A DNA stretch of 7,233 bases from Caldifarciminota bacterium (GTDB lineage Bacteria; Hydrothermota; Hydrothermia; LBFQ01; DSFT01), in contig JANXBH010000023.1 of NCBI GenBank assembly GCA_025060695.1, forward strand, positions 1 to 7,233. The letters are read 5' to 3'. A model generated the notes under the pieces. The model was given only the letters and a program-made list of their open reading frames with translations. It did no database searches and was not told the DNA's origin. A program made the position numbers and the translations under genes. Positions 553-7,233 of the stretch are shown here, piece by piece. Each line of letters starts with the position of its first letter. Positions within the stretch are counted from its first letter, which is position 1.

Positions 553-562
553 AATTTTAAGG
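553..562 (-). promoter_or_regulatory. CCTTAAAATT box; putative -10 element of a leaderless dut promoter
   Basis: On the minus strand the sequence reads CCTTAAAATTTCAAAGTG, with TAAAAT at 559-554 and only 6 bases before the GTG start. That is the spacing expected when transcription starts at, or next to, the start codon. The box overlaps the stop codon of the channel gene (557-559), so a promoter would lie inside the upstream gene's end. There is no purine-rich ribosome binding site. No convincing -35 hexamer was seen. The same 10-base pattern precedes four other genes in this window. Confidence 0.5.
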
Positions 563-1234
563 TTTGCTATTCTCATTAGCTTGTTGATACTCAGAAAGTG
601 CATTTACAATTATACCTACAAATAGATTTAGAACTATAAAAGTTCCAAATAGTATATAGCTAACGAAGTAAATCCAAGCCCAACTATAGTAATTTGCAAT
701 TTCTAAATATATATCAAACCAACCCTCAAGCGTAATGACTGAAAAAAGTGTTATAAATGCTCTTGAAAGGTCAGAAAAATAGGCTGGTGCAACCCTTGAA
801 AATAGATGCACGCCGATGATAGAATAGATATAAATCATAATAATTAGCAGTAAAATAATATATGAAACTGACGGAATAATACTAAATAAGGCACTAATTA
901 GCATTTTGAGTTTTTTTATCCTTGTTATTAATAACATAATTCTTAGAACCCTAAAAATCCTCAAAACTGAAAAGGCAGAATTTGTAGGAAGTAAACTAAT
1001 AAGAATTATAAAGCTATCAAATACATTCCAACCATCTCTTATGAATGATAATTTAGGTTTAGTATTAATAAACCTCAAAATTAGCTCAATTACAAAAATG
1101 TAAACAATAATTTTATCGATAAACTCTATGGTTTTTCCGTACTTTTGGTAAATGCTTGGATAAGTTTCAAGACCAAGTAAAACTGCATTTAAAATAATCA
1201 AAAAAAATATAAAATATTCAAAATATTTGTTCAA
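557..1234 (-). CDS. single-domain voltage-gated cation channel (BacNav/CavMr-like), glycine-containing filter
   Basis: Inner-membrane six-helix channel subunit, expected to act as a homotetramer. Residues 5-22 match S1 (ILNAVLLGLET). S2 carries the conserved acidic residue in VIELILRF (48-55), and S3 has FD in GWNVFDSFIIL (68-78). S4 is LRIFRVLRIMLLIT (91-104), with gating arginines at 92, 95 and 98; the fourth charge position is Leu101. S5 spans roughly 122-145. The pore helix and filter are ITLFSVITLEGWFDIY (161-176), and S6 is roughly 186-211. Bacterial sodium channels have TLESW at the filter; here serine is replaced by Gly171, with Asp174 three residues later. A glycine here is also found in calcium-selective CavMr and in domains I and III of animal calcium channels. 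The cytoplasmic tail after S6 is only about 14 residues, so the usual C-terminal coiled coil is absent. TTG 1234-1232 is the only plausible start: an in-frame TAA at 1262-1264 precedes it. Family assignment is strong; calcium selectivity is inferred. Confidence 0.92.
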   Translation of the reverse strand: MNKYFEYFIFFLIILNAVLLGLETYPSIYQKYGKTIEFIDKIIVYIFVIELILRFINTKPKLSFIRDGWNVFDSFIILISLLPTNSAFSVLRIFRVLRIMLLITRIKKLKMLISALFSIIPSVSYIILLLIIMIYIYSIIGVHLFSRVAPAYFSDLSRAFITLFSVITLEGWFDIYLEIANYYSWAWIYFVSYILFGTFIVLNLFVGIIVNALSEYQQANENSKP

Positions 1235-1261: not shown

Positions 1262-1631
1262 TTAAAAAGCAATTTTGATACGCTCTAATATAAACTTGTT
1301 TGCATTTATTAAAACTCTTTTGTTATTCTCATGTCTTACAAGTTTTATGGCATCTTCAAAACTAAACCAACCTCCTGCAAAATGCTCATTACTTATACAA
1401 AATTTCCTTTCTAATGATCTTGCAAGAAATAATATTAACTTCTTATTTATTAACCTATATACCAGTCTCTTCGTAAAGCTCTCTTATTGCACCTTCCAAT
1501 TCATTTTCATTCTTTTCAATTTTACCCTTTGGAAATCCCCAATAACTTGTATGCTTTAAAAGTAAATAGTATATTCTACTATTTTCAATATAGAAAAGTA
1601 TAAAACCTGTAGATATTTCATCAAAACTCAT
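1262..1631 (-). pseudogene. frameshifted Nudix hydrolase, Ap4A-hydrolase (NUDT2) type
   Basis: The first frame (1631-1455) gives 58 residues with a complete Nudix box: GKIEKNENELEGAIRELYEE with TG following, preceded by YWGFPK, the signature of asymmetric diadenosine tetraphosphate hydrolases. It ends at TAG 1457-1455. The rest of the fold continues one frame over to TAA 1264-1262, reading NKKLILFLARS, HFAGGWFSFEDAIKLVRHEN and a C-terminal helix. The joined product would be about 122 residues. Family members are usually nearer 140, and the missing part falls exactly between the Nudix box and the KKLILFLARS strand, so a small out-of-frame deletion is likelier than a single miscalled base. The ATG overlaps the leuS stop as ATGA, implying translational coupling. 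The first frame alone lacks the second half of the fold and is probably inactive. A sequencing error remains possible. Confidence 0.85.
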
Positions 1632-4144
1632 GCTACTACTAAACTTAAAACTTTGTTCTTTACGTATATTTTTTTGACAATTTTTTTATGTTTTATGTAT
1701 TTTTCGTAAATCTGAGAATTTTTGAAAACTTCAAAAACCTCATCTTCATCACTATTAACACCTACACTAATTACCCCTCTAAATATACCATTTATCTGAA
1801 CACTTATTTTTATTTCCTCTTGGATTATATACTTTTCATCGTAATCAGGTAAAGGATTTTCAAATACGCTATTTTCATAACCAAGTCTATGGTAAATTTC
1901 TTCTGCTATGTGAGGAGCAAATGGTGCAAGTAATATTGAAAATATTTTTAATGCTTCTTTATACTGATAGCTTTTTTTGTTAGGATAGTCCTTTAGATAA
2001 TTTAAAAATTCCATAAGCTTTGCTATAGCAGTATTAAACCTAAAATCATCCATCCTTTCTCTAATTTCTTTTATTTTTCCATGGATGAAGGACTTAAGCT
2101 TATAGTCTTCAATATCTTCAGTAAATTCCAAGCTGCTATACAAACTTAAAACTCTATTTAGGAATTTTTTTGCACCTTGGACTATTGAATCTGTCCATTC
2201 AAAATCTTGTTCAGGTGGTGCTGCAAATAGTATAGCAATTCGTGCAACATCAGAACCATTTTCATCTAAGAACTTAGAAAGTGGGACAATATTTCCTCTT
2301 GACTTTGACATCATTTCTACTTTTTCTTCTAATTCTATACCACTTTCAGCATGGTAAAACTTTCCCTCTTTTTCAACTACAACGCTTTCATCAACAGTCT
2401 TATAGTTTACAGGATCCCAATAGAACCTCTTTAATACTAAACCTTGTGTAAATAATTTATTAAAAGGTTCATCGTAATTAACTATACCTTCATCGTATAA
2501 AACTTTATATATAAATCTTGCATAAATTAGATGTTTAGTTGCATGTTCTATTCCTCCAATGTACAAGTCTACTGGCATATACAATTTTTCTAAGCTTTTA
2601 CTTATAATCTCGTTTTCATTTTTAGAATCTATGAACCTAAGATAATACCAAGAGGAATCCACAAAAGTATCCATAGTATCAGTTTCTCTTCTTGCCTTAG
2701 ATTTACATTTTGGACAGTTAGTATATACAAAATTTAAATCATTTTCTAATGGGGAATAGCCATATATAGGCTTCCAGCTTTCAAGCCTTTCAGGAAGTAG
2801 TACAGGAAGTTCACTTTCTGGAACTTCAACTATACCACAATTATCACAATAAATAATGGGTATTGGACAGCCCCAATATCTCTGCCTTGAAATTAACCAG
2901 TCTCTTAGTCTATAAGATGTACTTCTTTTGCCTAAATCTAAACTTTCTAACTTTTTCGCAATTTCAAGTATTGCATCTTTACTCTCTAAATTGTTAAACT
3001 CACTACTATTTATTAAAATTCCATAATCTTCAAATGCTCTCTCTTTTAAAATTTCATCTAAATTACCTTCTTTAGGCTTAATAACTGGAATAATTCTTAA
3101 ATTAAATTTCTTTGCAAATTCGTAATCTCTTTGGTCATGCGCTGGAACACCCATAACTATACCTGTTCCATAGTCGTATATTACATAGTCAGAAATATAA
3201 ATAGGAATTTCTTGACCCGTAAGGGGATGAGTTGCATATTCATACGTAAATACTCCAGTTTTCGTAGTTTGAGACCTCCTTTCAATTTCTGTCTTGCTTA
3301 AAGCAATATTAACGTATTTTTCAATTTCTTCTTTATTCCTTGAATGCTTAATTATTTCCTTTACTATTGGATGCTCAGGTGCAACTGATATAAAGCTCAC
3401 ACCAAATATGGTATCTACTCTTGTAGTAAACACCTCCAAGAATTTATCTCTATACTTAAACTTTATTAAAACTCCTTCACTTTTTCCTATCCACTCCTCT
3501 TGCTGCTTTATTACATTATCTGGCCAGTTCCCCCTAAGTTTTTCTAAGTCGTTTAGCAGTCTTTCTGCATATGCAGTTATTTTAAAAAACCATTGTTCAA
3601 ATTCTTTCTTTACTACAGCCCTTTTACATCTTTCACATTTTCCATCTATTACTTGCTCATTAGCCAAAACCGTCTTACAATGTTCACAGTAATGAACAAA
3701 CTCTTTCTTTCTATAAGCAAGTCCTTTTTTATATAGTAATAAAAATATCCACTGTGTCCATCTGTAATAATCTGGTTCACATGTAGAAATTTCCCTCTCC
3801 CAATCATAGCTCATACCTGCTTTTTTCAGTGTTTCTCTAAATATATTAATATTTCTATTAGTCCAATCTCTTGGATGAATATTATAATTAATTGCAGCAT
3901 TTTCCGCAGGTAGTCCAAATGCATCCCAACCCATAGGATGCAACACATCATACCCTTGCATAAATTTTATTCTTGAAACAACATCTCCAATTGCATAATT
4001 TTTCAAATGCCCCATATGCAAATCACCAGATGGATATGGAAACATTTCTAAAACATAGAACTTCTTTCCATTTCCTTTTACTTTAAATAAATTTTTCTCC
4101 TTCCAAAATAGTTGCCATTTCTTTTCTATTGCTACAAAATCCAT
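1628..4144 (-). CDS. leuS: leucyl-tRNA synthetase
   Basis: Class I synthetase that charges tRNA-Leu and edits mischarged isoleucine or norvaline analogues. It has 838 residues from the chosen ATG, a usual bacterial length. The HIGH-type motif is PYPSGDLHMGHLKNY (HMGH at 43-46). A first zinc module has Cys 153, 156, 170 and 173. The CP1 editing domain shows TTRVDT (240-245) and GTGIVMGVPAHDQRDYEFA with its conserved Asp. RDWLISRQRYWGCPIP (415-430) leads into a second zinc module with Cys 433, 436, 477 and 480. The KMSKS loop reads MMSKSRGN (611-618), so its first lysine is Met. The anticodon-binding helices include LLAPFAPHIAEEIY. ATG at 4144-4142 gives the canonical start MDFVAIEKKWQLFW; a GTG six bases upstream and a TTG at 4180 are also in frame, but the latter would overlap mlaE. 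Its TGA stop overlaps the Nudix start. Confidence 0.97.
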   Translation of the reverse strand: MDFVAIEKKWQLFWKEKNLFKVKGNGKKFYVLEMFPYPSGDLHMGHLKNYAIGDVVSRIKFMQGYDVLHPMGWDAFGLPAENAAINYNIHPRDWTNRNINIFRETLKKAGMSYDWEREISTCEPDYYRWTQWIFLLLYKKGLAYRKKEFVHYCEHCKTVLANEQVIDGKCERCKRAVVKKEFEQWFFKITAYAERLLNDLEKLRGNWPDNVIKQQEEWIGKSEGVLIKFKYRDKFLEVFTTRVDTIFGVSFISVAPEHPIVKEIIKHSRNKEEIEKYVNIALSKTEIERRSQTTKTGVFTYEYATHPLTGQEIPIYISDYVIYDYGTGIVMGVPAHDQRDYEFAKKFNLRIIPVIKPKEGNLDEILKERAFEDYGILINSSEFNNLESKDAILEIAKKLESLDLGKRSTSYRLRDWLISRQRYWGCPIPIIYCDNCGIVEVPESELPVLLPERLESWKPIYGYSPLENDLNFVYTNCPKCKSKARRETDTMDTFVDSSWYYLRFIDSKNENEIISKSLEKLYMPVDLYIGGIEHATKHLIYARFIYKVLYDEGIVNYDEPFNKLFTQGLVLKRFYWDPVNYKTVDESVVVEKEGKFYHAESGIELEEKVEMMSKSRGNIVPLSKFLDENGSDVARIAILFAAPPEQDFEWTDSIVQGAKKFLNRVLSLYSSLEFTEDIEDYKLKSFIHGKIKEIRERMDDFRFNTAIAKLMEFLNYLKDYPNKKSYQYKEALKIFSILLAPFAPHIAEEIYHRLGYENSVFENPLPDYDEKYIIQEEIKISVQINGIFRGVISVGVNSDEDEVFEVFKNSQIYEKYIKHKKIVKKIYVKNKVLSLVVA

Positions 4145-4987: not shown

Positions 4988-6282
<1,295 letters not shown>

Positions 6283-6368: not shown

Positions 6369-7233
6369 ATGATAATATTGCTGATATCATACAGTGAGCT
6401 TACAGAAAAATTTATATCTTTGTTTAGTGAAAGATACAACACTCCACACGAGGAAGTAGTGGAGTTTATAAAACGCTCAGATATTTACGTTCTTGCAAGT
6501 TATATTCAAGATTTTTGGTCTATAAGTCCAATAAAAGAAGCATATAGATATGCAGAAATTATCAAAGAAGACGTATTAAATAGTCCAAAAGAAAAAAATC
6601 CTCCAAATATAAATGTTAGTTATATAAACTGCGGTTCTACTACACAAAGATGGCAATGGGGAAATGACAACGGAGGACCAGCATGTACTGGTGCCAATAG
6701 ATGTTGGGGAACTATATTAAATGGAAATTATCCTCCAAATATGGAAGACACTTTATACTCACCAATAATAAATGCGAGTGGATATAGCAGCATTGTACTA
6801 AGATTTAGACAATGGTATTACACTGAAAATAACTTTGATCAAGGTTTTATTTTATGCTCACCTAATGGGGGAAATAATTGGTATTTAGTGGCAGGACCAA
6901 TTCAAGGTAATTCAAATGGATGGATAAACACTAATCTAAATTTACCTCCACAATGTCAAAATACATCTCAGTTAAGAATAGCATTTAGATTTAGAAGTGA
7001 TTTTTCAATTCAATACTATGGATGGTATATAGATGATGTAGTTATAGAAAATCAACAGACCACTATTGCATCATACGACTTTAACGCAAATGATGGAGGA
7101 TGGACTGCAACACAAGCTATAAGTATATCAGACCCTTATCTACTATCAAATAACTTCTTACAATGGTATGTAGATATACTTTCAGCAAATGATCTTGGAA
7201 CATATGGAACATATACAGCAAGAACAGGACCTT
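6369..7233 (+). CDS. N-terminal part of a MAM-like/choice-of-anchor-J jelly-roll protein (immune inhibitor A-like)
   Basis: An open frame of 288 codons continues past the right edge. Residues 1-80 form a helix-prone segment without recognised similarity (for example HEEVVEFIKRSDIYVLASYI, 27-46). Residues about 83-227 resemble the jelly-roll domain found after M6 peptidases and in choice-of-anchor-J proteins: a WQWGND opening, NRCWGTILNGNYPPNMEDTL (110-129), LRFRQWYYTENNFDQG (144-159), a PNGGNNW turn (165-171) and the closing YYGWYIDDVVIE (216-227). Aromatic and Asn/Gly-rich content fits an extracellular protein. From about 235 (YDFNANDGGWTA) a second, similar domain begins and is cut off. No peptidase motif is visible. 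The N-terminus (MIILLISYSELTEK) is not a normal signal peptide: there is no basic region and the hydrophobic run is very short. The export route is unclear. The full protein could be a secreted adhesin or enzyme; its function cannot be assigned. Confidence 0.8.
   Translation, partial: MIILLISYSELTEKFISLFSERYNTPHEEVVEFIKRSDIYVLASYIQDFWSISPIKEAYRYAEIIKEDVLNSPKEKNPPNINVSYINCGSTTQRWQWGNDNGGPACTGANRCWGTILNGNYPPNMEDTLYSPIINASGYSSIVLRFRQWYYTENNFDQGFILCSPNGGNNWYLVAGPIQGNSNGWINTNLNLPPQCQNTSQLRIAFRFRSDFSIQYYGWYIDDVVIENQQTTIASYDFNANDGGWTATQAISISDPYLLSNNFLQWYVDILSANDLGTYGTYTARTGP

Follow-up and report, generated by a model that had tools for sequence, protein, structure and literature searches.

Does a one-domain voltage-gated channel encoded by a Caldifarciminota bacterium, with a glycine in its selectivity filter where NaChBac- and NavAb-type sodium channels have a serine, conduct calcium, and does it extend native calcium-type filters to another lineage? 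The window, that is the whole stretch of DNA analysed, comprises 7,233 nucleotides of contig JANXBH010000023.1 (assembly GCA_025060695.1). Here the channel occupies positions 557 to 1234 of the minus strand as an unbroken ORF of 225 amino acids, counted from a TTG at 1234. There is no in-frame ATG; TTG starts are normal in bacteria, and translation may in fact begin as many as nine codons away. The filter was originally placed at residues 168-174, and these indeed read T168-L-E-G171-W-F-D174, with Glu170 at filter position 3, Gly171 at position 4, Phe173 at position 6 and Asp174 at position 7. Its codons run from 733 down to 713 on the minus strand; the interval first given for it (712-734) marks the right site, but is one base too wide on each side.

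The identification of the protein as a single-domain voltage-gated channel stands on several grounds. The Pfam Ion_trans domain matches the ORF at 2.2e-51 (174.9 bits against a cut-off of 25). The AlphaFold2 model, computed from a 45-row alignment, is confident throughout (mean pLDDT 94.6, as opposed to only 60 in a single-sequence prediction) and displays six transmembrane helices (S1-S6) and two pore helices. Among PDB structures, NavAb entries resemble it most, with Z 21.1 and an rmsd of 1.3 over 211 residues. Given this Ion_trans match and the 39% identity to both NavAb and NaChBac over the length of the ORF, the filter motif is not a chance occurrence. For the latter comparisons we used a NavAb sequence, which matched NavAb PDB entries, and what is presumably the NaChBac sequence. 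The six-helix Ion_trans domain, the NavAb-like fold and a filter of the T-x-E/D-x-W type, rather than the TVGYG of potassium channels, make the channel a single-domain member of the prokaryotic BacNav superfamily in the broad sense. By analogy with that family, it probably forms a tetramer and is gated by voltage.

The voltage-sensor residues E50, W69, D73, R92, R95 and R98 are retained. Of these, the three arginines are the gating charges of the S4 segment (residues 92-104; positions 923-961, minus strand), whose fourth charge position is Leu101 in this channel as against R or K in 161 of 170 aligned relatives. The protein lacks cysteines entirely, and its C-terminal tail (positions 557-601, minus strand) amounts to 14 residues after Asn211, plus the stop codon, against a median of 47 aa and a 5th percentile of 32 in the 170 relatives. 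The gene for a dUTPase begins about 10 bases beyond the end of the channel.

What such a filter might conduct can be judged from published measurements. The filter of CavMr from Meiothermus ruber, TLEGWVD, is separated from TLEGWFD by V6F only, and has a PCa/PNa of 218, which falls to 12 in G4S and to 40 in V6T (TLEGWTD) while D7M (TLEGWVM) still holds 144 (PMC7041947). Hence, Gly4 and position 6 matter in CavMr and Asp7 does not: the glycine is a selectivity determinant in that channel, as had been stated for it, and the additional role envisaged for Asp174 as an extra acidic residue is not supported. On the NavPp background, D4G (TLEGWTD) yields a PCa/PNa of 41 and the graft of the whole CavMr filter (NavPp-Mr) 215, such that all published TLEGWx(D/M) filters that we found on CavMr or NavPp backgrounds prefer Ca2+, with PCa/PNa of 40-218 (PMC7041947). 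In contrast, NavAb S178G, which also reads TLEGW, stays Na+/Li+ selective with a PCa/PNa below 0.01, in a study whose authors cite CavMr as their own earlier report (PMC12919392). The TLEGW motif is therefore insufficient and the surrounding pore decides, which deprives the glycine alone of the predictive value for calcium selectivity with which it had been credited. At the same time, the literature searched yielded no natural TLEGW channel demonstrated to be sodium-selective, the finding that the original prediction had named as speaking against itself.

An alignment with 170 relatives shows the T, L/F, E/D and W columns of the filter to be conserved in nearly all of them, with the filter of our channel in the expected column; the TLESW attributed to NaChBac and NavAb is confirmed and occupies the same columns. 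Phenylalanine at position 6 is found in none of the 170 sampled relatives (0/170), the usual residues being A, V, T, P, S, I and N. All sampled TLESW channels (8/8) have an extra residue after position 7. Our channel and 134 of 151 Gly4 channels lack it, a structural marker that sides with CavMr. TLEGWFD with Asp7 also agrees with the description of the AnclNav group, to which CavMr belongs, as having TLExW and an extra acidic residue instead of the canonical TLESW. The long P2-S6 loop with a cysteine pair, which characterizes CavMr orthologues and is not required of the wider group, is missing; two or more cysteines occur in this loop in 30 of 171 aligned rows.

The glycine filter itself is widespread. 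A scan of 84,980 species genomes with the degenerate pattern LFxxxT(L/F)EGWxD recovered at least 116 stretches. Of the 114 motif ORFs listed, five are unrelated and all others are homologous by BLASTP (E 3e-17 or better), which puts the number of such channels with TLEGWxD or TFEGWxD at 109 or more; the pattern selects for Gly4, and these ORFs carry no frequency information. Judging by record titles among the matches listed, the motif channels span over a dozen phyla, namely Pseudomonadota, Bacteroidota, Ignavibacteriota, Verrucomicrobiota, Planctomycetota, Cyanobacteriota, Chloroflexota, Actinomycetota, Acidobacteriota, Spirochaetota, Campylobacterota, Bdellovibrionota, Myxococcota, Deinococcota and others. 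Protein searches in sampled phyla found Gly at position 4 in 17/17 channels of Chloroflexota, 13/14 of Deinococcota and 11/25 of Bacteroidota, shares that may lean toward the type of the Gly4 query by similarity to which the matches were ranked. Moreover, the AnclNav group had already been placed in many phyla and in archaea (PMC7041947). Thus, TLEGWxD is not a new native filter type but one common across bacteria, and the novelty claimed for the filter is not supported. Two alphaproteobacterial genomes (loci L069 and L108; Hyphomicrobiales; Xanthobacteraceae) each encode a tandem pair of distinct TLEGWVDG channels, separated by about 1 kb.

We then asked where the channel falls in a tree of 65 representatives from which the filter columns were removed and in which a Meiothermus rufus homologue stands for the CavMr side. 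Two clades are well supported, one of 22 members with the M. rufus homologue (100/99) and one of 29 members with NavAb (100/98). The channel belongs to neither and stands by itself on a long branch, at a fork that the tree does not resolve and that includes NaChBac as well; its composition is atypical, and the bootstrap of the tree had not settled. The anticipated clustering with CavMr is hence not recovered, although forcing the channel into the CavMr clade is not rejected by the AU test (p-AU 0.37), nor is placing it beside NaChBac (p-AU 0.375). A forced grouping with the Chloroflexota group is 16.6 log-likelihood units worse and likewise not rejected (p-AU 0.18). No major clade is without TLEGW, the NavAb-like clade included, and there are at least 11 changes between the Gly and non-Gly states on this tree.

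Examination of 147 genomes of the same phylum revealed nine other Ion_trans loci, of which six carry the TVGYG potassium signature and three (L018, L020 and L021) have neither TVGYG nor T-x-E/D-x-W recognised in the matched frame; no other Nav/Cav-type channel was recognised in these genomes, and no protein-level homologue of the channel was found in 100 relatives. The simplest reading is that the channel was gained from outside the phylum. A contaminating contig is an unlikely source, as the LeuRS encoded on it is nearest to that of same-family genomes (62%); within the short flanks covered in three relatives, LeuRS was not accompanied by any of the other genes of the window. A viral origin was also considered and set aside, one scan of viral contigs having returned no relative. 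The only match to the channel in a phage collection, at 31% identity, lies on an unannotated 17-kb faecal scaffold. This scaffold (MT835812.1), labelled 'Bacteriophage sp.' and derived from human faeces, has near its end a homologue of the one-domain voltage-gated type (L012, 16545-17153) with a divergent filter, SPDSG, and may itself be bacterial sequence.

A comparison with Rfam yielded no matches. Between LeuRS and the channel, upstream of the latter, lies a NUDIX hydrolase gene (about 1264-1632, minus strand), split between frames just past its NUDIX box (RELYEETGI), whether by a genuine frameshift or by a fault in the assembly. A D12-class adenine methyltransferase (5522-6282, plus strand) is similarly split between two frames near 5740, its N- and C-terminal pieces matching the two ends of the Pfam model. 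At 6369-7232 (plus strand) lies the beginning of a large protein that weakly matches MAM-type domains of InhA/M36 metallopeptidases and runs off the contig end. The GC content of the 16S gene, 57% against 31% for the window, suggests that the host is probably a thermophile. Its genome also encodes a Na/Ca-exchanger-family protein with both repeats and one P-type ATPase, and extrusion of Ca2+ is therefore possible.

The channel most likely mediates voltage-triggered cation entry with Ca2+ preferred over Na+, a function that we regard as probable, though by no means assured; the preference for Ca2+ is plausible by extension from the CavMr and NavPp mutants. We envisage a homotetrameric, voltage-gated channel with a CavMr-type (AnclNav-type) filter, in which depolarisation would move S4, together with the three arginines it carries, and so open a pore with four TLEGWFD segments along its wall. 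The high-field-strength site would then be a ring of Glu170, and Gly171 would create a wide mouth admitting hydrated Ca2+. We count in favour of calcium the match to CavMr at 6/7 filter positions, the missing extra residue, the retained voltage-sensor residues, the resemblance of the model to NavAb along its whole length and the possible Ca2+ export. Against it we count NavAb S178G, the absence of Phe6 in 170 relatives at a position that matters, the lack of grouping with CavMr, the lack of the cysteine loop, the missing fourth S4 charge, the lack of an ATG start and the two frameshifted neighbouring genes.

Some of these points bear on a possible but distinctly less probable alternative, a non-selective or sodium-preferring voltage-gated channel that carries TLEGW incidentally and whose Ca2+ selectivity is lost through the bulky Phe6 and a different pore scaffold. 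It would agree with the behaviour of NavAb S178G (PMC12919392), with the weakening of CavMr selectivity by substitution at position 6 (PMC7041947) and with the presence of TLEGW inside the NavAb-like clade, and the identity of the channel to NavAb and NaChBac (39%) is no lower than that to the Meiothermus channel (38%). However, Asp7 and the direct passage into the P2 helix, with no residue inserted, resemble the CavMr type and not the NavAb type, and PCa/PNa is at least 40 in all TLEGW variants measured on CavMr or NavPp backgrounds (PMC7041947). A more radical reading, which we consider unlikely, takes TLEGWFD, the three-charge sensor and the near-absence of a tail together as a minimal channel with selectivity or gating unlike that of CavMr, acquired by a thermophilic lineage from outside its phylum; in its lineage-unique filter, the aromatic ring of residue 6 would lie above the mouth formed by the glycine.

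The short tail, the lost S4 charge and the absence of an in-frame ATG could also be read as signs of a decaying or non-functional remnant, as could the NUDIX and D12 methylase genes nearby, each split between frames, and the failure to recognise a Nav/Cav-type homologue in the 147 phylum genomes. Yet nothing interrupts the ORF, the filter is intact in all its residues and the voltage sensor in most, the AlphaFold2 model is confident throughout, a TTG start is nothing unusual for a bacterium and the frameshifts may be draft-assembly errors, making decay a quite improbable account. Voltage-triggered entry with a preference for Ca2+ is our favoured function: the channel is a plausible calcium channel, but an unsurprising one, given how common its filter type is. 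It is of little importance alone, with the survey as a useful by-product, indicating that Gly4 is common and not exceptional in prokaryotic one-domain channels, in CavMr-like and NavAb-like pore contexts alike. Since TLEGW tracks Ca2+ selectivity in CavMr and NavPp while NavAb shows no such link, the natural range of these channels could help to tell apart what the glycine contributes and what the pore around it does.

In terms of known systems, NaChBac and NavAb share the fold and 39% identity with the channel, but have TLESW with an extra residue after position 7 and no acidic residue at that position. Domain I of the T-type calcium channels resembles the channel in the filter (VITLEGWVDI in Cav3.1/Cav3.2 versus VITLEGWFDI here), but Cav3 channels are eukaryotic and four-domain. 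They are not the nearest relatives either: their top rank in the PDB search is the sum of six matched stretches, the best of which scores 88.8 bits, whereas a bacterial channel with one domain reaches 181.7 bits. The top-scoring relatives, at about 45% identity, are uncharacterised TLEGWTD/TLEGWTE channels of Chloroflexota (L148, L149, L119 and others), which have the same filter type and short P2-S6 loop but differ in having Thr at position 6, longer tails and, for the most part, a complete set of S4 charges, and do not group with the channel in the filter-free tree. Other Chloroflexota channels (L163, L164 and L165), with TLDGWS(D/E) filters and without the first and fourth S4 arginines, are second paralogues, their genomes (G235, G275 and G191) encoding in addition a channel nearer to our query. 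CavMr (PMC7041947) differs in Val at position 6, a cysteine-bearing P2-S6 loop, a fourth S4 arginine and a longer tail, with the M. rufus homologue 38% identical to our channel; nevertheless, both are single Ion_trans domains with the voltage-sensor signature, and share the TLEGWxD filter with no extra residue after position 7.
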